DNA from: Yersinia thracica
GTDB taxonomy: Bacteria; Pseudomonadota; Gammaproteobacteria; Enterobacterales; Enterobacteriaceae
Length of the DNA: 64,000 nt
Direction: 5' to 3'
NCBI RefSeq assembly: GCF_902170565.1
Contig: NZ_CABHXX010000030.1
Location: 62,001 to 126,000 of the forward strand
A program made the translations under genes and the position numbers. The notes under the pieces are model-generated. The model was not told the origin of the DNA. It saw only the letters and a list, made by a program, of their open reading frames with translations, and did no database searches. Of the stretch, positions 1,887 through 57,580 are shown piece after piece. The first letter of the stretch is position 1; each line of letters opens with the position of its first letter.

Positions 1887-3251
1887 ATGAAAATAAAATC
1901 GGTTTCACTGTTAATCAGTTCGTTATTTCCTCTGTTGTCTTATGCCGCCACTGAGGTCGAAGTCGCACGCTATATTGTCAGTTTTCCCGGCGGTGAGCAT
2001 GTAAGTTATCAGGGCGCGTTCGCTAAGAACTTCCCGCAGGGATTACCGGTAGGCATCGGCTCGGGTCTGGTATTCAATGGTCGTGAAGGCGATGACCTGC
2101 TGTTGACCACAGTGACCGACCGTGGCCCCAATGCCGATGCGCCTGCGGTCGGTGAACAGGAAGCCAAAATTTTCGCCAACCCTGATTTCGTCCCGCTGTT
2201 GATGGATATTCGTGTCGGTGGTGGTAAGGCGGTTGCCAGCAATTCACGCCCACTGCATGACCAGCAAGGGCCTATTAGCGGGTTGCCACTACCGGCAGGT
2301 CTAATTGGTTCAACCAATGAAGTCGCGTTGAGTGATACGCTGAAAATCTTGCAGGGCGATCGGCGTGGACTGGATACCGAAGGTATTACGGCGGATGGCA
2401 AAGGCGGCTATTGGCTGTGTGACGAATATGGTCCGTTCCTGATCCATATCGACAGCCAAGGCAAGATCCTTGCCAAATACGGTCCGTCACCGGAGCAGGG
2501 CGAGCAGGCGGTGGCTGGCGGATTGCCGAATATTATCAAGTGGCGTCAACCTAATCGTGGTTTTGAAGGTATTACTCGCTTGCCGGACGGGCGCATTCTG
2601 GCTGCCGTGCAGAGCACGCTCGATGTTGAGGGCAAAAGCAAGAGCAAGGCACAGTTCACACGCCTGATCAGTTTTGATCCCACCACTGGCAAAACGGCAA
2701 TGTACGGTTATCCGATCGATATCGACAACTATAAAAAGGCCAAAGACGCCAAAGTGGGAGACATTGTGGCTGTAGACAACCAGCATATTTTGTTGGTTGA
2801 GCAGGGCAGTGATAAGGACAAACAGATGATCAACAAGATCTACCTGGTTGATCTCAGCCTGGCGACCGACCTGTCGGCTTTCGATGGCAAAGGCAAAGCA
2901 TTGGAATTTGATGATGCGAAAGAACTCGCCAAACGCGGCGTGAAGTTGGCGCAGAAACGGGAAGTGGTAGATCTGCGCAAGTTAGGTTGGCAACAGGAGA
3001 AGGTCGAAGGGTTGTCGCTGATCGACAATCGCACATTGGCGGTAATTAACGATAACGATTTTGGCCTGCAGGCCAGTTTGGTAGACGCGGAGCCAAAGGC
3101 GAAGAAAATTGGCGATTATAAGTTGAATAAACAGGGTAATCTGAGCCTGGACGGCAAAGCTGTGTCGACCCGTATTGAACTGCGCCCGCTGGAGAAACCG
3201 GAATCGCTCAGTGAACTGTGGGTCTTGACGCTGCCGCAACCGCTGAAGTAA
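1887..3251 (+). CDS. Exported esterase-like protein of the phytase-like family
   Basis: 454 residues with an N-terminal signal peptide (about 1-20, cleavage after LLSYA), so periplasmic or secreted. The body matches the phytase-like/esterase-like family (a beta-propeller type fold, PF13449): repeated strands with GLDTEGIT, GGYWLCDEYGPF, GFEGITRLPDGRI and EGLSLIDNRTLAVINDNDF. The characteristic E/D-rich metal-site motifs are present and the length is normal. Substrate is unknown; members are linked to phosphoester or ester hydrolysis. The gene is single, is divergent from ydfG, and its stop lies 70 bp before dif. Confidence 0.85.
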   Translation: MKIKSVSLLISSLFPLLSYAATEVEVARYIVSFPGGEHVSYQGAFAKNFPQGLPVGIGSGLVFNGREGDDLLLTTVTDRGPNADAPAVGEQEAKIFANPDFVPLLMDIRVGGGKAVASNSRPLHDQQGPISGLPLPAGLIGSTNEVALSDTLKILQGDRRGLDTEGITADGKGGYWLCDEYGPFLIHIDSQGKILAKYGPSPEQGEQAVAGGLPNIIKWRQPNRGFEGITRLPDGRILAAVQSTLDVEGKSKSKAQFTRLISFDPTTGKTAMYGYPIDIDNYKKAKDAKVGDIVAVDNQHILLVEQGSDKDKQMINKIYLVDLSLATDLSAFDGKGKALEFDDAKELAKRGVKLAQKREVVDLRKLGWQQEKVEGLSLIDNRTLAVINDNDFGLQASLVDAEPKAKKIGDYKLNKQGNLSLDGKAVSTRIELRPLEKPESLSELWVLTLPQPLK

Positions 3252-3321: not shown

Positions 3322-3349
3322 GGTGCGCATAATGTATATTATGTTAAAT
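3322..3349 (+). other. dif: Chromosomal dif site
   Basis: 28 bp matching the E. coli dif sequence at every position as I recall it: XerC arm GGTGCGCATAA (3322-3332), central TGTATA (3333-3338), XerD arm TTATGTTAAAT (3339-3349). XerC and XerD resolve chromosome dimers here under FtsK control. It marks the replichore junction. Filamentous phages and other XerCD-dependent elements also use it as an attachment site. Confidence 0.97.
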
Positions 3350-39892: not shown

Positions 39893-41284
39893 TTACAACG
39901 CGCGTAAAATTGCCTCTACGCTGTCTTTGGCATCGCCAAATAACATTTGAGTATTGTCTTTGAAGAACAATGGGTTTTGTACGCCAGCATAGCCGGTGTT
40001 CATTGACCGTTTAAAGGCGATAACATTTTGCGCTTTCCATACTTCCAGCACTGGCATACCTGCAATCGGGCTGCGAGGATCTTCAAGTGCTGCAGGGTTT
40101 ACCGTGTCGTTAGCACCAATAACCAGTACGACGTCAGTGCTTGGGAAATCATCATTGATTTCATCCATTTCCAGCACCACATCATAAGGCACTTTGGCTT
40201 CAGCCAATAACACGTTCATATGGCCTGGTAAGCGCCCTGCTACTGGGTGAATACCAAAACGCACTTTGATACCCCGTGCTTGCAGTTTTGCTGTAATGTC
40301 AGCCACCGGATATTGTGCCTGTGCCACCGCCATACCATATCCAGGGGTGATGATGACCGAGCTGGCATTTTTCAGCAGCTCGGCCACTTCTTCCGCGTTA
40401 GTTTCACGGTATTCACCCATTTCTTCAGCATCACCGGTGGAAGAACCATCGGTACCGAAGCCACCGGCAATCACGCTGATGAACGAACGGTTCATCGCTT
40501 TACACATGATGTACGACAGGATAGCACCGGAAGAACCCACTAACGCACCGGTCACAATCAGCAAGTCATTGCTGAGCATGAAACCTGCGGCCGCCGCGGC
40601 CCAACCGGAGTAGGAGTTCAGCATCGAAACCACAACCGGCATATCAGCACCACCGATGGATGCCACCAGATGCCAACCGAAGCCCAAAGCAATCACGGTC
40701 ATCAATAGTAATGCAACCACTTGCAGGGCCACGCTATCTGTCTTGACGAACATAATCATCAGCAGGAATGAAACAACCAGCGCCACCAGATTTAACTTAT
40801 GGCGTTGTGGCAGCATCAGCGGTTTGGATGAGATAATTCCACGTAATTTACCGAAGGCAACAATTGAACCAGTAAATGTTACCGCCCCGATAAAGATACC
40901 CAGGAACACTTCGGTTAGATGGATATTCACCATCACCGCATCCATGACCTCGGCACCATGATCCAGATAGCTGTTAAAGCCAACCAGAACGGCTGCCAGA
41001 CCCACGAAGCTGTGCAGAATCGCTACCAGTTCCGGCATTTCGGTCATTTCGACTTTCTTCGCCAGATAAATACCCATCGCCCCACCAATTACCATGGCAA
41101 TGATAATCCAGGCAACATTCCCTGAATCTGGCCCCAGAATGGTCGCGATAAGTGCGATGGCCATACCGGTTACACCGAAAGTGTTACCTTGTTTGGATGT
41201 TTCGTGGCGCGACAGCCCAGCCAAACTGAAAATAAATAAAATCGCAGCAACTATGTACGCAGCTGTAACGAGACCACTAGACAT
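39893..41284 (-). CDS. pntB: NAD(P) transhydrogenase beta subunit
   Basis: 463 residues, matching E. coli PntB (462 aa). About nine membrane helices fill residues 1-260; the C-terminal dIII domain (about 285-463) binds NADP(H), seen as [18 protein letters not shown] and [10 protein letters not shown]. With PntA it forms the proton-driven transhydrogenase making NADPH from NADH in the inner membrane. It follows pntA by 61 bp, longer than usual. Confidence 0.97.
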
Positions 41285-41345
41285 CAGTTACCCCTTCATT
41301 CTTATAAGTCATGGTGTTATACCCACTGAGTTTTCACCGGGAAAA

Positions 41346-42929
<1,584 letters not shown>

Positions 42930-46958: not shown

Positions 46959-47206
46959 CCCTCAGTCCTTAGCTGATTGACACAGCTATTCATTAATCAT
47001 AAATATTGATATATAAACGATAGGCGCAACTAAATAGAGATGACGATACAATCACTCCCATTAATATAATGAAATGCTTTGCCGGTTGTCTACCAATCAG
47101 TCATAGGCATTGATAACTCATTGGCATTAATAATCAAGTAACGTGCATAGTATTGCTACCAACAGCGCGCTATGCTGAATTCCGGCACTTTTATAAACTG
47201 AAAAAC

Positions 47207-47935
47207 ATGACCAAAATTGTTTTTGTAGAAGACGACCCGGAGGTCGGAAAACTGATCGCAGCCTACCTTGGCAAACATGACATTGATGTGTTTGTTGAAC
47301 CGCGAGGTGATACTGCACAAGCCGTTATTGAACAGCAACAACCTGACCTGGTGTTGCTCGATATCATGCTGCCAGGGAAAGATGGGATGACGCTGTGCCG
47401 TGACCTGCGGCCAAGCTATGAAGGCCCTATCGTGCTGTTGACCTCGCTTGACAGTGATATGAACCATATCCTTTCCCTGGAAATGGGGGCGAATGATTAT
47501 ATCCTGAAAACAACGCCCCCTGCGGTGTTGTTGGCGCGGTTACGTTTGCATTTACGCCAGCATAATCAACAACAAACCAAAGAAACCATCAACCCGCCAC
47601 TCACTGGGTATAATGCAATTCACTTCGGTTTGCTCTGCATTGATCCTGTTAATCGACAAGTTAATCTCAGTGATGAAGAAATTACTTTATCAACTTCAGA
47701 TTTTGACTTGCTGTGGGAGCTGGCAACCCATGCCGGGATGATCATGGACCGGGAAGCATTATTGAAGAATTTACGTGGCGTCAGCTATGACGGGATGGAC
47801 CGCAGTATCGATGTTGCGATATCGCGCTTGCGTCGCAAACTTTACGACAATGCCCTCGAACCTTTCAGAATCAAAACCGTCCGCAATAAAGGTTACCTGT
47901 TCGCCCCGAATGCCTGGGAGTCTGTGCAGCAATGA
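47207..47935 (+). CDS. rstA: Response regulator RstA
   Basis: 242 residues, OmpR/PhoB family, matching E. coli RstA. The phosphoacceptor is Asp52 (LVLLDIMLPGKDG); the winged-helix DNA-binding domain occupies about 135-235 (MDREALLKNLRGVSYDGMDR). It controls acid-stress and biofilm genes, including asr. The start at 47207 follows homology; there is little ribosome site. Its TGA overlaps the rstB ATG. Confidence 0.95.
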   Translation: MTKIVFVEDDPEVGKLIAAYLGKHDIDVFVEPRGDTAQAVIEQQQPDLVLLDIMLPGKDGMTLCRDLRPSYEGPIVLLTSLDSDMNHILSLEMGANDYILKTTPPAVLLARLRLHLRQHNQQQTKETINPPLTGYNAIHFGLLCIDPVNRQVNLSDEEITLSTSDFDLLWELATHAGMIMDREALLKNLRGVSYDGMDRSIDVAISRLRRKLYDNALEPFRIKTVRNKGYLFAPNAWESVQQ

Positions 47936-49245
47936 GGAAGCTATTTATTCAGTTTTTCTTATTACTGTTCGTCTGCTTTATGGTGATGGCGATGTTGGTT
48001 GGGCTGGTTTATAAAGTGACAGCTGAACGCGCTGGTCGCCAGTCATTAGATGATTTGATGAAAAGCTCGCTTTCATTGATGCGCAGTGAGCTGCGGGAAA
48101 TTCCACTGAAAGATTGGAATAAAACCATTGCCACTTTAGATTTAAACCTTTCATTTCAATTACATATCGAACCTCTCGATAAGCGAGATCTCGGTAATCG
48201 CTTGAATAAGCGCCTGCGTGCCGGTGAAATTATTGCTTTGGATGATGAATATACTTTCCTGCAACGAATCCCCCGCAGCCACTATGTCCTTGCTGTTGGT
48301 CCAGTCCCCTATTTATTTTATTTGCATCAAATGCGGCTGCTTGATTTGGCCTTACTTATCCTGATTGGCCTCTCTTTGGCTCTACCGGTATTTCTTTGGA
48401 TGCGCCCCCATTGGAAAGATTTGCTTAAATTGGAGAATGCCGCCCAGCGGCTAGGGTCGGGCCATCTGGACGAGCGCACGCATTTTGACCCCACTTCAAG
48501 TTTAAGCCGCTTAGGTGTCGCGTTTAACCAAATGGCTGACAACATCAGCACCTTGATTGTCAGCAAGAAACTGCTTATTGATGGAATTGCTCACGAGCTG
48601 CGCACCCCACTGGTTCGTCTGCGCTATCGATTAGCCATGAGTGATAACCTGACTGAAAGTGAGCAACTGGCTTTGAATCGCGATATTGGCCAGTTGGAAG
48701 CATTGATTGACGAACTGCTGACCTATGCGCGGCTAGACCGTCCGCAAGTCTCACTCAATCTGGAACCTATCGACTTACCGGCCTGGCTCACTGCAAAAGT
48801 TATGGATATGCGCTTAATTCATAGTGAGCGCGTGATAGAACTCGATATTCCTCATTGTGGCGATTTCGGCGCAGTTGACTTACGCCTGATGGAGCGAGTA
48901 TTGGATAATTTGGTCAATAATGCCCTGCGCTATTCGACCCAACGGCTGCGAATTGGGCTGTGGTTTGATGGCGATAATGCTTGTTTACAAGTTGAAGATG
49001 ACGGGCCGGGGATTCCATTAGAAGAACGCGCCCGAGTATTTGAGCCTTTTGTCCGGCTGGACCCTAGCCGGGATCGCGCCACCGGGGGCTGTGGATTGGG
49101 CCTGGCAATCGTTCACTCCATTGCATTGGCTTATCAGGGGAGTATTTCCGTTGATGCCAGTTCGTTAGGAGGCGCGAGTTTCCGATTTTGTTGGCCAGTA
49201 AAAGATCTTTACTCACTCACTATCGACCAAGATGACTCTAAATAA
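47932..49245 (+). CDS. rstB: Sensor histidine kinase RstB
   Basis: 437 residues. Membrane helices at about 8-28 and 136-156 flank a short periplasmic sensor; a HAMP linker follows. The phosphorylated His221 is in the H-box (DGIAHELRTPLVRLRYRLAM), and the N, G1 and G2 boxes are intact (DNLVNNALRYS, DDGPGIP, GGCGLGLAIV). It is coupled to rstA by an ATGA overlap. In E. coli rstAB is PhoP-activated; no clear PhoP box was found upstream here. Confidence 0.95.
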   Translation: MRKLFIQFFLLLFVCFMVMAMLVGLVYKVTAERAGRQSLDDLMKSSLSLMRSELREIPLKDWNKTIATLDLNLSFQLHIEPLDKRDLGNRLNKRLRAGEIIALDDEYTFLQRIPRSHYVLAVGPVPYLFYLHQMRLLDLALLILIGLSLALPVFLWMRPHWKDLLKLENAAQRLGSGHLDERTHFDPTSSLSRLGVAFNQMADNISTLIVSKKLLIDGIAHELRTPLVRLRYRLAMSDNLTESEQLALNRDIGQLEALIDELLTYARLDRPQVSLNLEPIDLPAWLTAKVMDMRLIHSERVIELDIPHCGDFGAVDLRLMERVLDNLVNNALRYSTQRLRIGLWFDGDNACLQVEDDGPGIPLEERARVFEPFVRLDPSRDRATGGCGLGLAIVHSIALAYQGSISVDASSLGGASFRFCWPVKDLYSLTIDQDDSK

Positions 49246-49325
49246 TGGTTTTGCCTACACAATGATTTTGCTCAAATATTAGCCTTAATAAAACAAGTCG
49301 GCCTATAAGTTTAATGGAGTTTTTT

Positions 49326-50807
49326 ATGACCACAGCTTATCAACACCTGCGCGCTACGTTTACACGCCTTTCTCGCTTTGAGCATTTGTCGGCCATTGCC
49401 GGATGGGATATGCAAACTATGATGCCGCCAAAAGGTAATCTTGCCCGCTCAGAGGCGATGGCGGAGCTGAATGTATTGCAACATCAAATACTAACGGCCA
49501 ACGATGTTGGTGAATGGTTGAAGCAAGCGGAACAAGAAACTCTGGATGATGTCGAGCAAGCAAATTTGCGTGAAATGCGCCGGCACTACAATAATGCCGT
49601 GTTGCTGCCGGAAGCATTGGTTGAGGCGAAATCACTAGCAGGTGCCCGCTGCGAACATGCCTGGCGACAGCAGCGCATCGCAAATGACTGGAATGGTTTT
49701 GCTGAAAATCTACGTGAAGTGGTCACTCTCAGCCGCGAAGAGGCGGCAATTCGTGCTCAAGCCGCCGGAACATCGCGCTATGACGCATTGCTGAACTTAT
49801 ATGAACCGGGAACCAATAGTGCCGATTTGGACCGTATATTTGGCGATCTTAAACAGTGGTTACCTGATCTCTTGCAAAAAGTGACAGCTAAGCAAGCGGA
49901 TGAACCCTGCCTGATACCACAGGGGCCATTTGACCAGGAAAACCAGCGCCAACTTGGACTCAATGTGATGAAAGTGCTCGGTTTCGACTTTGATGGCGGC
50001 CGGGTCGATGTTAGTGTCCATCCATTCTGCGGTGGTATACCGCAAGATGTACGCATTACTACACGTTATAATGAACAAGAATTTCTCAGTGCATTAATGG
50101 GGATTATTCATGAAACAGGTCATGCACGTTATGAGCAAAATTTGCCGCGTGAATGGCTGGGCCAGCCAATATCACATGCACGCTCAACGGCAATTCATGA
50201 ATCTCAAAGCCTACTGTTTGAAATGCAATTAGCCCGCAGCAAAGAATTCTTGCAAGTCATTCGCCCATTGGTCATACAGCAATTTGGTGAACAACCCGCA
50301 TTAGCAGAACAAAATTTCATTGCTCTGAATCAACGTGTTAAAACCGGTTTTATCCGAGTTGATGCCGATGAAGTCAGCTACCCTGCCCATGTGATTTTGC
50401 GCTACGAGATCGAAAAAGCATTAATTAGCGGGGAAATCGAGGTCGATGACATCCCGGCCTTATGGAATGAAAAAATGCAGCAATATCTTGGGATTAACAC
50501 CGAAGGTAATTACCGTAATGGCTGTATGCAAGATATTCACTGGACCGACGGTGCCTTTGGTTATTTCCCGACATATACACTGGGTGCTATGTATGCTGCC
50601 CAGCTTTTCCAAACGGCGCGAAGTGCTATCCCTGGATTAGATAAGAATATTGCCAATGGTGACCTTAGTGCCCTATTCAATTGGTTGCAGCAAAATATCT
50701 GGCAACAGGGTAGCCGTTATTCAACCGCAGAGCTGATCACCAAAGCGACAGGTGAACCACTTAATCCTCGCTTTTTCCACGAGCATTTAGAGCGCCGCTA
50801 TTTATAA
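49326..50807 (+). CDS. M32 family metallocarboxypeptidase
   Basis: 493 residues from ATG 49326 (TGGAG site seven bases upstream; ATG 49314 precedes that site). It is a thermostable-carboxypeptidase-1-type enzyme with the zinc motif HETGH at 262-266 (GIIHETGHARYEQN), the HESQS motif (STAIHESQSLLFEM) and a family-typical C-terminus (YRNGCMQDIHWTDGAFGYFP). It removes C-terminal residues in the cytoplasm. It occupies the interval where E. coli has tus. Confidence 0.92.
   Translation: MTTAYQHLRATFTRLSRFEHLSAIAGWDMQTMMPPKGNLARSEAMAELNVLQHQILTANDVGEWLKQAEQETLDDVEQANLREMRRHYNNAVLLPEALVEAKSLAGARCEHAWRQQRIANDWNGFAENLREVVTLSREEAAIRAQAAGTSRYDALLNLYEPGTNSADLDRIFGDLKQWLPDLLQKVTAKQADEPCLIPQGPFDQENQRQLGLNVMKVLGFDFDGGRVDVSVHPFCGGIPQDVRITTRYNEQEFLSALMGIIHETGHARYEQNLPREWLGQPISHARSTAIHESQSLLFEMQLARSKEFLQVIRPLVIQQFGEQPALAEQNFIALNQRVKTGFIRVDADEVSYPAHVILRYEIEKALISGEIEVDDIPALWNEKMQQYLGINTEGNYRNGCMQDIHWTDGAFGYFPTYTLGAMYAAQLFQTARSAIPGLDKNIANGDLSALFNWLQQNIWQQGSRYSTAELITKATGEPLNPRFFHEHLERRYL
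50381..50388 (-). promoter_or_regulatory. KOPS motif pointing toward dif
   Basis: CCCTGCCC on the plus strand, GGGCAGGG directed leftward to dif. Confidence 0.6.
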
Positions 50808-50838
50808 TCCCTTTCAGTATCCGATTGCCCCTATTGCC

Positions 50839-50936: not shown

Positions 50937-50959
50937 TAAGTGTATGTTGTAACTAAAGT
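50937..50959 (+). other. Ter replication fork arrest site
   Basis: The 18 bases GTATGTTGTAACTAAAGT (50942-50959) equal the core of E. coli TerB, including the conserved G:C pair at the non-permissive end. Tus bound here blocks a fork from the left side. With dif at 3322-3349 to the left, the site stops forks that have passed dif and try to leave rightward, as expected of a fork trap. In E. coli TerB lies between rstB and tus; this is the equivalent place, but no tus gene is in the window. Confidence 0.88.
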
Positions 50960-51078: not shown

Positions 51079-51092
51079 TACAATCGGTTACA
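51079..51092 (+). promoter_or_regulatory. Candidate RstA box upstream of asr
   Basis: TACAATCGGTTACA compared with the RstA consensus TACATNTNGTTACA has two mismatches at defined positions. It lies about 100 bp before asr, a known RstA target in E. coli. Confidence 0.6.
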
Positions 51093-51193: not shown

Positions 51194-51472
51194 ATGAAAA
51201 CAGTATTAGCTCTGATTGTTGCTGCAACTTTGGGTATGTCTTCCATAGCATTCGCTGCCGACACAGTTGCCCCGCCAGCAGCTCCAATGGCTACTGCACC
51301 CGTAGCCCATAGCGCTCCAGTCACCAAAAACATGCATCACAAAAAAGTGAAGAAAGAGGTGAAGAAAGCAGATAAAACTGCCCCGGTACAAAAAGCGCAA
51401 GCGGCTAAAAAACACCACAAAAAAGCGGCGCATACTAAGTCTGCCCCAGCAGCAGTACCGGCCGTAAAATAG
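51194..51472 (+). CDS. asr: Acid shock protein Asr
   Basis: 92 residues: signal peptide (1-21, cleaved after IAFA) and a mature part of almost only Lys, His, Ala, Pro, Val and Thr, with short repeats such as [12 protein letters not shown]. coli Asr (102 aa) has the same make-up, is periplasmic and intrinsically disordered, and protects proteins at low pH. GAGGA lies eight bases before the ATG. An RstA-type box upstream and rstAB 3 kb away fit the known control. Confidence 0.93.
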
Positions 51473-51817: not shown

Positions 51818-52651
51818 ATGCGTTTATCTTCATTATTACTATTAAGTCTGTTACCTCTTTCTGCGGCTCTAGCCCACCCACCGACAGACACGCAAAATGA
51901 TGACGCCAGTATTGCAGATCAAACAACTCTGTTCTTCGGTAAAGATGACCGTACAGCGGTAACTGATAGCCTCGAATGGCCATGGCAAGCTATTGGCCAA
52001 GTTGAAACGGCCAGCGGCAACCTTTGTACTGCAACATTAATCTCCCCTCGCCTGGCTCTGACAGCAGGTCATTGTGTATTGGCCCCTCCGGGTAAAATTG
52101 ACCGGGCCGTGGCCTTACGATTTATTTCTCAAAATGGTCATTGGAAGTACCAAACAACCAGCCTGGAAACACTGGTTGATGCTAAATTGGGTAAAAAACT
52201 CAAGCCTGATGGTGATGGTTGGATAGTTCCACCCGCCGCCGCAGCTTATGACTATGCACTTATTCGATTAACGAGTAAAAAAACTATTCCAATCAAACCA
52301 CTGCCACTGTGGGATGGAACTGCGAGCGAATTAACTCAAGCACTTAAACAAGTTGATCGTAAAATCACTCAAGCAGGCTACCCCCTGGATCACCTGGACA
52401 CACTTTATCGCCATGAAGATTGTCTGATTACAGGGTGGGCACAGCAAGGCGTGCTTTCTCATCAGTGTGATACATTACCCGGTGACAGCGGCTCGCCCCT
52501 ACTGTTGAAAAATGGCGAAAAGTGGTCTTTGATTGCGATTCAAAGTTCCGCTCCCGCCGCTAAAGACCGTTATCTCGCGGATAACCGAGCTTTGGCAGTC
52601 ACTGCCATAAAAGGCCGGTTAAAAACACTCGCAAATAAAGCAGCCAAATAA
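51818..52651 (+). CDS. ydgD: Trypsin-like periplasmic serine protease YdgD
   Basis: 277 residues, matching E. coli YdgD (273 aa). A signal peptide (about 1-19) precedes a chymotrypsin-fold domain with His85 (LTAGHC), Asp145 ([10 protein letters not shown]) and Ser224 (PGDSGSPLL), so the triad is complete. Four further Cys (CTATL, HC, EDC, HQCD) could form two disulfides. Natural substrate is unknown. It follows asr-ydgU as in E. coli. Confidence 0.93.
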
Positions 52652-53686: not shown

Positions 53687-56600
53687 TTAAGCAGAGAGTT
53701 GGTCGATAGTTTGCAAAATACGTTTGTCCGAAATGGGATATGCTGTCCCCAATTGCTGGGCAAATAAGCTCACCCGCAGTTCTTCAATCATCCAACGAAC
53801 TTCTTTAACATCTTCATCTTGCTGGCGTTTAGGCGGTAACTTATTGAGCCATTGCTGCCACATTTGCTGGACATGTTCTATGCGCAACATTTGGGCGCGA
53901 TCACGATGAGGGTCGACAGCTAACTTCTCCAGACGGCGCTCAATTGCGTGTAAATAGCGTAATGTATCAGGTAAACGTTTCCAGCCATTATTAGTGACAA
54001 AGCCTCGGTAAATCAGGCCGCCAAGCTGTGCTTTAATGTCTGAAAGTGCCAATGCTTGCGCAATATCGACGCGGCCTTTTAGGCGCTTATTAATACTAAA
54101 CGCCGTGGTTAGGATCTGCTCAACTTGCCTGGCAATATCCACGACTGTTTCATTTAACTCAGCTCGCACTTTTTCTTGTAACTGAGCAAAATCAGCCTCT
54201 TGCCATACCGGGCCACCATATTGCGCCACCAGTTTATCCACCCCACAAGCAATGCAATCATCAATCAGATCCATCACTTTGCCATAAGTATTGAAGTAAA
54301 GGCCGAGTTTGGATTTATTCGGCAGTTTTTCATGTAAATACTTAATGGGTGAGGGAATATTTAGCAGCAATAACCGCCGTGTACCTTGCCACATTGCTTG
54401 CTGTTGCTGAGATTCTGTATCAAACAAGCGGATCGCCACACTGTCTTTCTCATCCACCAGTGCGGGATAAGCTTTGACTTCGTATCCCCCGCGGCGTTGT
54501 TCATAGCACACCGGAAGTGAGCCGAAGCTCCAGATATGTAGGCCATTTTGTTCAATACCGTCATCCGCCACGGCAGAAAGGGTTTCCTGCACTTTTTCTT
54601 GAAGTTGTAGTTTCAAAGCCGCAAGATCTTTGCCCTCACGTAGCGTCCGATTTTTATCGTCCAGTACGCGGAATGTCATTTTCAGATGGTCGGGAACTTG
54701 CTCCCATTGCCAACTTTCACGTGACACCGTCACACCCGTCATGCGGCGTAATTCGCGCTCTAATGCCTCCAGTAAACTGGTTTCCAGCGGTGTTGCTCGG
54801 GCCAAAAAGGCTTCAGCATAATTAGGTGCGGGGACAAAGTTACGGCGAACAGGTTTAGGTAATGACTTGATAAGCGCCACCACCAACTCACGGCGAATCC
54901 CGGGGATTTGCCAGTCAAACCCCTCCTCCTTAACCTGATTCAGGATCGGAAGCGGGATATGGACAGTGACGCCATCGGCGTCAGTGCCCGGCTCAAATTG
55001 ATAAGAAAGCCGCAATTTGAGCGACCCTTGATACCAAAAATTCGGGTAATCCAGCGGGTTAACTTTATTCGCCCCATCCTTGATAAGCATGGTTTTTTCA
55101 AAGTTGAGTAACTCGGGCTGTGTCTGGCTGATTTTCTTCCACCAGCTATCAAAATGGCGCGCAGAAATAACATCGCGACCAATACGCTGGTCATAGAAGT
55201 TAAACAGTGTCTCATCATCAACCAGAATGTCGCGGCGGCGAGATTTGTGCTCCAGTTCTTCAACTTCAGCCAATAATTTTAAATTAGTCCGGAAGAAAGC
55301 ATGGCGCGTTTGCCAATCCCCCTCGACCAGACCGTGACGGATAAACAGCTCGCGGCACAGTGGCGGGTCAATGGGGCCATAGTTTATCTTGCGCTCAGTC
55401 ACGATAGGTAAGCCGAATAAGGTCACTTTCTCGCTCGCCATCACCGCCCCTTGCGCTTTTTCCCAATGCGGGTCGCTATAATGGTGTTTAACCAAATGTT
55501 GCGCTAAGGGTTCAATCCACTCTGGCTCAATGCGGGCAGCAATACGGCCCCATAAGCGGCTGGTCTCGACTAACTCAGCGACCATGCTCCATTTAGGCGG
55601 TTTTTTGAATAAACCGGAGCCGGGAAAAATGGCAAAGCGGGCATTACGTGCGCCGGTATACTCTTGCTTTTCAACGTCTTTTTGGCCGATATGTGACAAC
55701 AAACCGGTCAGAATAGCAGTATGGACGCTGCGATAATCCGCCGCGACGCTATTGACCGGGATACCCAATTCTTTCACTACCTGGCGCAGTTGGGTATAAA
55801 TATCCTGCCATTCACGTACCCGCAGATAATTCAGGAAATCGCTGCGGCATAATTTACGAAATTGCGCCGATGACAGCTCTTTTTGCTGCTCTTTCAGATA
55901 ATCCCACAAATTAACAAACGCAAGGAAATCAGAGTCTTTATCAGCAAAACGCCGGTGTTTTTCATCGGAGGCTTGCTGTTTATCCATCGGGCGCTCACGT
56001 GGATCCTGGATAGACAACGCCGAGGTAATAATCATCAATTCGCGCACACTGCCGCTTTTCTGAGCTTCCAGCACCATTCGAGCCAGGCGAGGATCGACCG
56101 GTAATTGGGCCAATTGGCGACCTAGCGGTGTCAGTTGCTGATGGCCGTTACTGGCCGTTTGGATCGCCCCCAGTTCTTCCAGCAGGCGCACGCCATCTTG
56201 AATATTGCGTTTATCCGGCGCTTCCACAAAGGGGAAGGCCGCGATATCCCCTAGCCCCAATGAGGTCATTTGCAGGATAACGGACGCCAAATTGGTGCGC
56301 AGAATTTCCGGATCAGTAAATTCAGGGCGAGACAGGAAATCCTGTTCGGAATAAAGACGAATACAAATACCGTCAGATACACGGCCACAGCGGCCTTTGC
56401 GCTGATTAGCAGAAGCTTGAGAAACCGGCTCGATCGGCAACCGCTGTACTTTGGTGCGGAAACTGTAGCGGCTAATCCGCGCGGTGCCGGGGTCAATCAC
56501 ATACTTAATGCCGGGCACTGTCAGTGACGTTTCCGCCACGTTGGTCGCCAGTACAATTCGCCGCCCATGATGCGACTGAAACACCCTATTCTGCTCGCTA

Positions 56601-57580
56601 TTTGATAAGCGGGCATACAGCGGCAGCACTTCCGTATGGGGCAAATTCTGTTTCATCAGCGCATCAGCGGTATCACGGATTTCCCGTTCGCCACTCATAA
56701 AGATCAGAATATCGCCGGGACTTTCGCGACCCAGTTCATCGACGGCATCAAAAATAGCTTGTAGCTGATCGCGCTCAACATCATCGGCATCATCCACAAT
56801 CGGCCGATAGCGCACTTCCACCGGATAGGTGCGGCCAGAGACTTCAATAATGGGCGCATTATTGAAATGATGAGAAAAGCGCTGCGGATCAATAGTCGCC
56901 GAGGTGATAATGACTTTCAGATCAGGGCGTTTTGGCAATAACTCGCGCAAATAGCCCAAGATGAAATCAATGTTCAGGCTACGTTCATGGGCCTCATCAA
57001 TAATCAGGGTGTCATACTGCATCAGCAGACGGTCTTGCTGAATTTCAGCCAGTAAAATACCGTCGGTCATTAACTTAACCAGCGTATTTTCGCCCACTTG
57101 ATCATTAAACCGCACTTTATAACCGACACAGCCGCCAAGGGAGGTGTCTAGCTCATCGGCAATACGGTTCGCCACGGTACGGGCAGCAAGACGACGCGGC
57201 TGAGTATGGCCGATAACGCCTTTGACACCGCGCCCCAATTCCAGACAGATTTTCGGCAACTGCGTGGTTTTACCGGAACCGGTCTCACCGGCGACAATGA
57301 CCACCTGATGATCGCGGATAGCATGATAAATATCCTGCTTTTTCTGACTGACCGGCAAATTTTCAGGATAAGTGATAGCCGGACAGGCCGCCCGACGGCT
57401 GGCAACCCGCTGCATTGCAGTAGCAAATTCGGCCTCTATTTCACGGGTAATCGCCTCTACGGCCTCTGGATTATGGACTTTTCGTGCGCCTTGCAGCCGA
57501 CGCCGCATGCGCTGTTGGTCACGGAGCATCAACTCCCCGAGTTGGGAGGATAATGCTGCGAGCGAAGATTTCACGTTCAA
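53687..57580 (-). CDS. hrpA: ATP-dependent RNA helicase HrpA
   Basis: 1297 residues (E. coli 1300), DEAH-box superfamily 2. Walker A is GETGSGKT (98-105), the DEAH box is at 194-197 (LIIDEAHERS), motif III is TSATID and motif VI QRKGRCGR. Helicase-associated and OB domains and a long HrpA-specific C-terminus follow. It helps rescue stalled ribosomes and processes mRNA. It is divergent from azoR as in E. coli. A matS site lies inside (54721-54733). Confidence 0.97.
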   Translation of the reverse strand: MNVKSSLAALSSQLGELMLRDQQRMRRRLQGARKVHNPEAVEAITREIEAEFATAMQRVASRRAACPAITYPENLPVSQKKQDIYHAIRDHQVVIVAGETGSGKTTQLPKICLELGRGVKGVIGHTQPRRLAARTVANRIADELDTSLGGCVGYKVRFNDQVGENTLVKLMTDGILLAEIQQDRLLMQYDTLIIDEAHERSLNIDFILGYLRELLPKRPDLKVIITSATIDPQRFSHHFNNAPIIEVSGRTYPVEVRYRPIVDDADDVERDQLQAIFDAVDELGRESPGDILIFMSGEREIRDTADALMKQNLPHTEVLPLYARLSNSEQNRVFQSHHGRRIVLATNVAETSLTVPGIKYVIDPGTARISRYSFRTKVQRLPIEPVSQASANQRKGRCGRVSDGICIRLYSEQDFLSRPEFTDPEILRTNLASVILQMTSLGLGDIAAFPFVEAPDKRNIQDGVRLLEELGAIQTASNGHQQLTPLGRQLAQLPVDPRLARMVLEAQKSGSVRELMIITSALSIQDPRERPMDKQQASDEKHRRFADKDSDFLAFVNLWDYLKEQQKELSSAQFRKLCRSDFLNYLRVREWQDIYTQLRQVVKELGIPVNSVAADYRSVHTAILTGLLSHIGQKDVEKQEYTGARNARFAIFPGSGLFKKPPKWSMVAELVETSRLWGRIAARIEPEWIEPLAQHLVKHHYSDPHWEKAQGAVMASEKVTLFGLPIVTERKINYGPIDPPLCRELFIRHGLVEGDWQTRHAFFRTNLKLLAEVEELEHKSRRRDILVDDETLFNFYDQRIGRDVISARHFDSWWKKISQTQPELLNFEKTMLIKDGANKVNPLDYPNFWYQGSLKLRLSYQFEPGTDADGVTVHIPLPILNQVKEEGFDWQIPGIRRELVVALIKSLPKPVRRNFVPAPNYAEAFLARATPLETSLLEALERELRRMTGVTVSRESWQWEQVPDHLKMTFRVLDDKNRTLREGKDLAALKLQLQEKVQETLSAVADDGIEQNGLHIWSFGSLPVCYEQRRGGYEVKAYPALVDEKDSVAIRLFDTESQQQQAMWQGTRRLLLLNIPSPIKYLHEKLPNKSKLGLYFNTYGKVMDLIDDCIACGVDKLVAQYGGPVWQEADFAQLQEKVRAELNETVVDIARQVEQILTTAFSINKRLKGRVDIAQALALSDIKAQLGGLIYRGFVTNNGWKRLPDTLRYLHAIERRLEKLAVDPHRDRAQMLRIEHVQQMWQQWLNKLPPKRQQDEDVKEVRWMIEELRVSLFAQQLGTAYPISDKRILQTIDQLSA
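54721..54733. promoter_or_regulatory. matS site inside hrpA
   Basis: GTGACACCGTCAC fits GTGACRNYGTCAC exactly. Confidence 0.85.

Follow-up and report, generated by a model that had tools for sequence, protein, structure and literature searches.

Ter2 of Yersinia thracica as a probable second arm of a two-site Tus-dependent replication fork trap in an older gene order

The Ter site near rstAB of Yersinia thracica, here named Ter2, is very probably the second arm of a two-site (type I) Tus-dependent fork trap that has kept an older gene order, and the different joints seen in E. coli-like genomes would have arisen by a reciprocal exchange. Ter2 lies in a window of 64,000 nucleotides (C30:62001-126000), within a 260 kb contig. 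The original prediction described it as a fork-trap site with no tus beside it, using as its reference the E. coli gene order, which is probably a derived one; our comparison indicates that the E. coli tus neighbourhood, although often used as a reference, is not the older state. Ter2 is an ordinary, conserved second arm of a trap type that has already been described. In a type I trap, the second arm is expected to stand apart from tus, and the apparent oddity of a Ter site without tus is thereby removed.

Ter2 reads TAAGTGTATGTTGTAACTAAAGT and holds the sole exact 14-base Ter core in the window (Table 1). The stretch 50942-50959 is identical to the final 18 bases of what we take to be the E. 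coli TerB sequence, confirming the match reported originally. This is the only match to the TerB 18-mer at up to three mismatches in the window, as compared with 0.04 expected from shuffles. The low expectation, together with a core that is invariant in Yersinia spacers otherwise poorly conserved, ruled out chance as an explanation of the 18-base identity. In the whole genome (an assembly of 140 contigs), we found two exact cores and no third, no core with one mismatch, and eight with two mismatches, as compared with 44 for a reversed control pattern. Promoter and terminator scans around Ter2 gave three and two hits, respectively, with shuffled sequence giving 1.7 and 1.2 on average. The G of the locking C6 pair is present, at 50942. 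The Tus-Ter lock has a known polarity, which gives the direction of the fork block, and by this polarity Ter2 is predicted to stop forks leaving dif, supporting the orientation proposed in the original prediction. The neighbouring genes named there, M32 carboxypeptidase between rstB and Ter2 and asr after it, were confirmed by Pfam.

Table 1. Features of the window that bear on Ter2, in window coordinates
Feature	Position	Strand	Evidence or remark
dif, between Ter1 and Ter2	3322..3349	+	exact match
pntB + pntA, rstB-side landmarks	39896..42872	-	87% / 85% identity to E. coli PntB / PntA
rstA	47153..47935	+	same gene order in relatives
rstB, sensor kinase; borders the putative ancient break on the Ter2 side	47932..49245	+	Pfam HATPase_c, HAMP, HisKA
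M32 carboxypeptidase; marks the putative old break (beside rstB here, beside ynfM in the E. coli-like clade)	49314..50807	+	PF02074, 553 bits
Ter2, 23-base Ter site	50937..50959	+	core 50942-50955; conserved in Yersinia; predicted to stop rightward (outgoing) forks
RstA-box-like sequence between Ter2 and asr, close to rstAB	51079..51092	+	two mismatches to what we take to be the consensus; weak
asr, acid shock protein	51194..51472	+	PF06392
ydgD-like trypsin-family protease	51818..52651	+	Pfam Trypsin; 62% identity to E. coli YdgD
hrpA-like helicase (presumably hrpA), outer neighbour of the Ter2 interval	53687..57580	-	gene order in relatives

The genome encodes the Tus homologue on which the original prediction depended. 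The tus gene (PF05472, 441 bits) was found on the same contig, 10.6 kb beyond the left end of the window (C30:50498-51388, minus strand), and the genome search gave one more exact core, Ter1 (C30:51437-51450, minus strand), about 25 bases from the tus ATG. The genome thus has a resident tus gene with a Ter site within the ~50 bases in front of it, as described for type I traps. Ter1 and Ter2 are on opposite strands, 61.5 kb apart, with dif lying between them at a distance of 13.9 kb from Ter1 and 47.6 kb from Ter2; given the known polarity, this fits an arrangement in which each site would face so as to stop forks leaving the dif region. By the genome-wide core counts, Ter1 is the innermost site on its side, and the hallmark of a type II trap, a Ter beside tus that is not innermost, was not seen at the level of exact or one-mismatch cores. 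Tus shows 53% identity to E. coli Tus, and I79, F140, H144 and G149, which have known roles as Tus contact residues, are invariant in all six aligned proteins; both the C6 pair and the contact residues expected of a type I trap are therefore present.

The original prediction had regarded Ter2 as the same site as TerB, parted from tus. This identity did not hold: a TerB orthologue would occupy the tus promoter, within the rstB-tus interval, whereas Ter2 lies in the M32-asr interval, and the counterpart of TerB is Ter1, which still fronts tus. It was right that tus is not beside Ter2, and what it had said of the Ter sequence, of a direction that fits a block of forks leaving dif, and of Ter2 being unable to autoregulate tus is supported; the gene lies 61.5 kb away, beside Ter1.

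We infer that Tus, made from the distant tus beside Ter1, would bind Ter2, that the Tus-Ter2 complex would stop a fork that had run past dif from the left, and that forks coming from the right would pass; at Ter1, Tus presumably represses its own gene. GC skew over the 82 kb examined peaks 4.5 kb to the right of dif, seven of eight octamers of the known KOPS motif point to dif, and the skew of the stretch from Ter1 to dif is near zero (0.0009). The position of the skew maximum and the KOPS direction suggest that Ter2 is, as a rule, probably crossed in the permissive direction.

The type I trap has been described for Yersinia pestis, Edwardsiella tarda, Dickeya paradisiaca and others, and Y. 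pestis is listed among the genomes whose innermost Ter is the one adjacent to tus (Toft et al. 2021, PMC8707476). The Y. thracica arrangement shares with the traps of that article the innermost position of the Ter belonging to tus, an oppositely oriented Ter on the second arm with dif lying between, and a narrow trap, here of 61.5 kb. It differs in that it comes from another Yersinia, and in that the main-text parts of the article that were compared do not say between which genes the second site lies; the name rstB is absent from its main text. In work cited by Goodall et al. (2021, PMC8347550), tus genes of Y. pestis and others that were expressed in E. coli gave functional complexes, with weaker blocking. 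The likeness to the E. coli TerB-tus pair consists of the 18 identical bases and of a homologous Tus; unlike in the type II trap of E. coli, which has extra inner sites such as TerC, the Y. thracica genome has only the two exact cores, and TerB corresponds to Ter1 rather than to Ter2.

A Tus scan of relatives gave 80 named loci; a Ter core stands in front of tus in 79, and the stretch examined upstream of tus contains ynfM in 57 loci, rstB in none, and neither recognised in 23, mainly from Rahnella and Photorhabdus. Further Ter sites were sought in 37 genomes (L105 left out), and 40 regions, representing a subset of the Ter matches, were read, 37 around matches away from tus and three around tus. 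Of the 37 sites away from tus, 20 follow rstB or M32 and, where the contig continues, precede ydgD; the remaining 17 are located elsewhere, in Rahnella, Ewingella, Dickeya, Pectobacterium and others. All 11 other Yersinia species with the interval in view have Ter2 between rstB/M32 and ydgD (10 exact and one variant). In the 11 Yersinia regions read, Ter2 follows rstB in every case, with M32 between them in 10, and the contig continues to ydgD and hrpA in 10. The variant is that of Y. frederiksenii, which has the core GGATGTTGTAACTA instead of GTATGTTGTAACTA at the same place. The interval likewise carries Ter2 in all seven Serratia genomes examined, in Hafnia, and at one of two Rouxiella sites. 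The 23-base Ter2 window showed a pairwise identity of 0.82 among 11 Yersinia, ranking second of 492 windows with a median of 0.49, in an alignment that leaves out ruckeri, does not include frederiksenii, and was built from pieces cut around the core, which favours the alignment of the core.

Of 30 older-order loci, 26 carry an exact Ter in the interval from rstB or M32 to ydgD and one more carries the variant, as compared with none of 17 E. coli-like loci. The 30 are those of 33 older-order loci with ydgD in view (thus without L124, L223 and L225), and comprise the locus of the window itself, 19 picked via a Ter match, the Y. frederiksenii locus, which was picked by position because its Ter had previously been missed, and nine picked by gene position (L214-L222), although for eight of these genomes the Ter list was already known. 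Gene position was also the basis for picking the 17 E. coli-like loci. Among the nine position-picked older-order loci, six have an exact core and three lack Ter2 in the interval.

The gene order of the window differs from that of E. coli K-12, which runs ynfM-asr-ydgD-mdtIJ-tqsA-pntBA-ydgH-ydgI-folM-ydgC-rstAB-tus-fumC, with a Ter core starting 28 bases ahead of tus; its joints rstB-tus and ynfM-asr are both unlike the order seen in the window. We mapped the marker positions in the 71 tus-bearing genomes among 119 searched in the family, counting genes within 20 kb as near. The tus gene was near ynfM only in 30 genomes, near pntA in 30 (six of them near both), and near neither in 11, mostly owing to contig breaks or missing markers. 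The ynfM-ydgD distance was at most 13 kb in 25 of the 30 pntA-near genomes, as compared with none of the 30 ynfM-only genomes, of which 16 were measurable on one contig with a smallest distance of 54 kb. In the other five pntA-near genomes, ynfM was not within that distance of ydgD, which counts against a coupling of the joints. For the most part, however, the rstB-Ter-tus and ynfM-M32-asr joints occur together, as one reciprocal exchange would produce. Of the 17 E. coli-like loci, 14 have M32 in the ynfM-ydgD interval and three, E. coli's among them, lack it; none of the eight rstB-tus loci read showed it beside rstB. This placement of M32 suggests that the breaks occurred at rstB|M32 and ynfM|Ter1, on the dif side of both Ter sites; the rstB|M32 point is about 1.7 kb from Ter2 in the Y. 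thracica genome.

In Tus trees of 116 and 120 rows, the rows with rstB before tus, together with one unassigned row, formed one group, with SH-aLRT values of 96 and 97, respectively. These are gene trees from a short search, with several long branches, and the support was read after re-rooting on Photorhabdus. Only one change between the ynfM and rstB neighbourhoods is required among rows in which either was recognised; when the 28 rows with neither recognised, some of them from short loci, are treated as a third state, there are two changes for the rstB group and 11 in total. The layout with rstB beside Ter-tus is that of one clade, which is E. coli's. Since the ynfM order is widespread, the change probably ran from the ynfM to the rstB neighbourhood, and the position of Ter2 near rstB without tus in Y. 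thracica is best understood as the older, widespread gene order retained. One genome (G213) has only two cores, at 3001 and 3565 kb, with dif at 3424 kb, which are the values published for Cedecea neteri (PMC8707476). This genome has a two-site trap of 564 kb, already with tus near pntA and M32 next to ynfM; in a figure legend of the article by Toft et al. (2021, PMC8707476), the transition of type I traps into type II is assigned to Cedecea.

Based on these gene orders, we infer that an ancestor of the E. coli-like clade underwent a single reciprocal exchange; breakage at ynfM|Ter1 and rstB|M32 would have joined rstB to Ter-tus and ynfM to M32-asr. In its simplest form, this would be an inversion of the trap interior around dif, followed by further rearrangements of the terminus; the choice of an inversion is a preference, not a proof. 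Four genomes (G159, G161, G207 and G247) have the layout expected after one inversion: tus is near pntA, and ynfM lies by ydgD in opposite orientation, 209-354 kb away, with dif between. Against a simple inversion, ydgD is followed by mdtI, and not by hrpA, in all four. The junction of pntB with a gene that we take to be uspE, as in the window, is kept in three of them (G159, G207 and G247) and also in G213. The expected flip of dif relative to tus was seen in G161 and G247 and not in G159 and G207. Among 13 older-order genomes in which tus and dif were mapped, the two are on opposite strands in 11 and on the same strand in two (G164 and G136), and dif orientation was dropped as an inversion marker because of this mixed result. 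In the Tus tree of 120 rows, the four genomes are spread within the rstB group and are not basal, although G207 belongs to the first-branching pair, suggesting that they may be later rearrangements rather than relics. Their value as clean intermediates is weakened by this position and by the loss of the ydgD-hrpA junction.

The proposed exchange resembles the terminus inversions of E. coli and Shigella, which span dif and Ter sites while the trap keeps working (Goodall et al. 2021, PMC8347550). The inversions described in that article differ between strains, whereas the proposed exchange would be characteristic of an entire clade, and both of its joints fall on the side of the Ter sites that faces dif. 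It gives the change from type I to type II a concrete gene-order history, in which a single clade would have undergone a reciprocal exchange with joints immediately inside the Ter sites. No report of such a history was found among the literature matches listed, by titles and starts of abstracts, which is not proof that none exists.

The same joints can be derived in other ways. Circular permutation of the window's block gives the E. coli order ynfM-asr-ydgD-mdtIJ-tqsA-pntBA-...-rstB-tus, and excision of pntBA-...-rstB-M32-asr-ydgD as a circle, opened between rstB and M32 and inserted between ynfM and Ter1-tus, would give both joints and this order in one step. Such a block move would agree with the location of both joints on one side of tus and in the same orientation in most E. 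coli-like genomes, and with the scattering of the four single-inversion layouts in the tree. However, the pntB-uspE junction kept in G159, G207, G247 and G213 means that the circle must exceed the block, and inversions centred on dif are a frequent finding in termini (PMC8347550); we regard the block move as unlikely. A homologous crossover between the two Ter cores, which are identical inverted repeats in Y. thracica, would also place both new joints near Ter sites, but it would leave M32 with rstB. As M32 travels with ynfM instead, this crossover was ruled out and retains hardly any probability. A distinctly improbable extension of the preferred reciprocal exchange is that the trap interior inverted with breaks on the fork-stalling faces, that Tus-Ter stalling caused these breaks, and that a later loss of Ter2 from its interval initiated the conversion of type I into the many-site type II. 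The comparison makes the question of whether stalled forks cause such breaks more tractable.

As to Ter2 itself, forks probably meet near dif, judging from the skew maximum, so that Ter2 may rarely be used, and its absence from three of nine position-picked loci might also speak for a functionless relic or a chance match. The number of matches expected by chance, the invariance of the core, the expected orientation and the cognate tus in the genome make this reading extremely improbable. Tus blocks transcription in a polar manner, and Ter2 might, besides or instead of stopping forks, act as a roadblock insulating asr from read-through out of rstAB-M32. Transcription out of M32 would meet the blocking face of Ter2, an RstA-like box lies between Ter2 and asr, and the terminator scan gave no hit between M32 and Ter2, although there is a hairpin without a T run near 50838. 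Such a role appears very unlikely in view of the variable M32-ydgD spacer (786 to 3762 bases) and of six of 19 such loci with ydgD in view in which asr was not detected, with a short, low-complexity query. A further explanation, somewhat unlikely in our judgement, is that Ter2 arrived in this interval only in a lineage including Yersiniaceae and Hafniaceae, and that the E. coli lineage never lost it. No Ter-like site at up to two mismatches was found in the 17 E. coli-like intervals, and three older-order genomes are likewise without Ter2, whereas a Ter between ydgI-like and hrpA genes in Photorhabdus (L143) and another between rstB and ydgD (G154) hint at an older site. Because of the three loci lacking Ter2 and the 17 of 37 sites located elsewhere, the presence of Ter2 in this interval in the ancestor of the E. 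coli-like clade is not proven.

Several minor observations were made on Ter sites in the genomes searched. The tus of Serratia rubidaea (L063) is the sole one of the 80 loci without a preceding core matching GYRTGTTGTAACWA, and one locus (L007) has tandem Ter cores, at 2424 and 2478, 54 bases apart, before a single tus. Chimaeribacter arupi (G141, the genome of L067) has eight Ter-like cores on eight contigs, the most among the 37 genomes. Ter-like sites occur as opposite-strand pairs, spaced 120-190 bases, on secondary contigs of three genomes (G247:C2:73425/73613, G247:C4:11686/11874, G170:C2:41087/41209 and G227:C2:22685/22812); these contigs are perhaps plasmids, and the pairs are reminiscent of plasmid replication termini.
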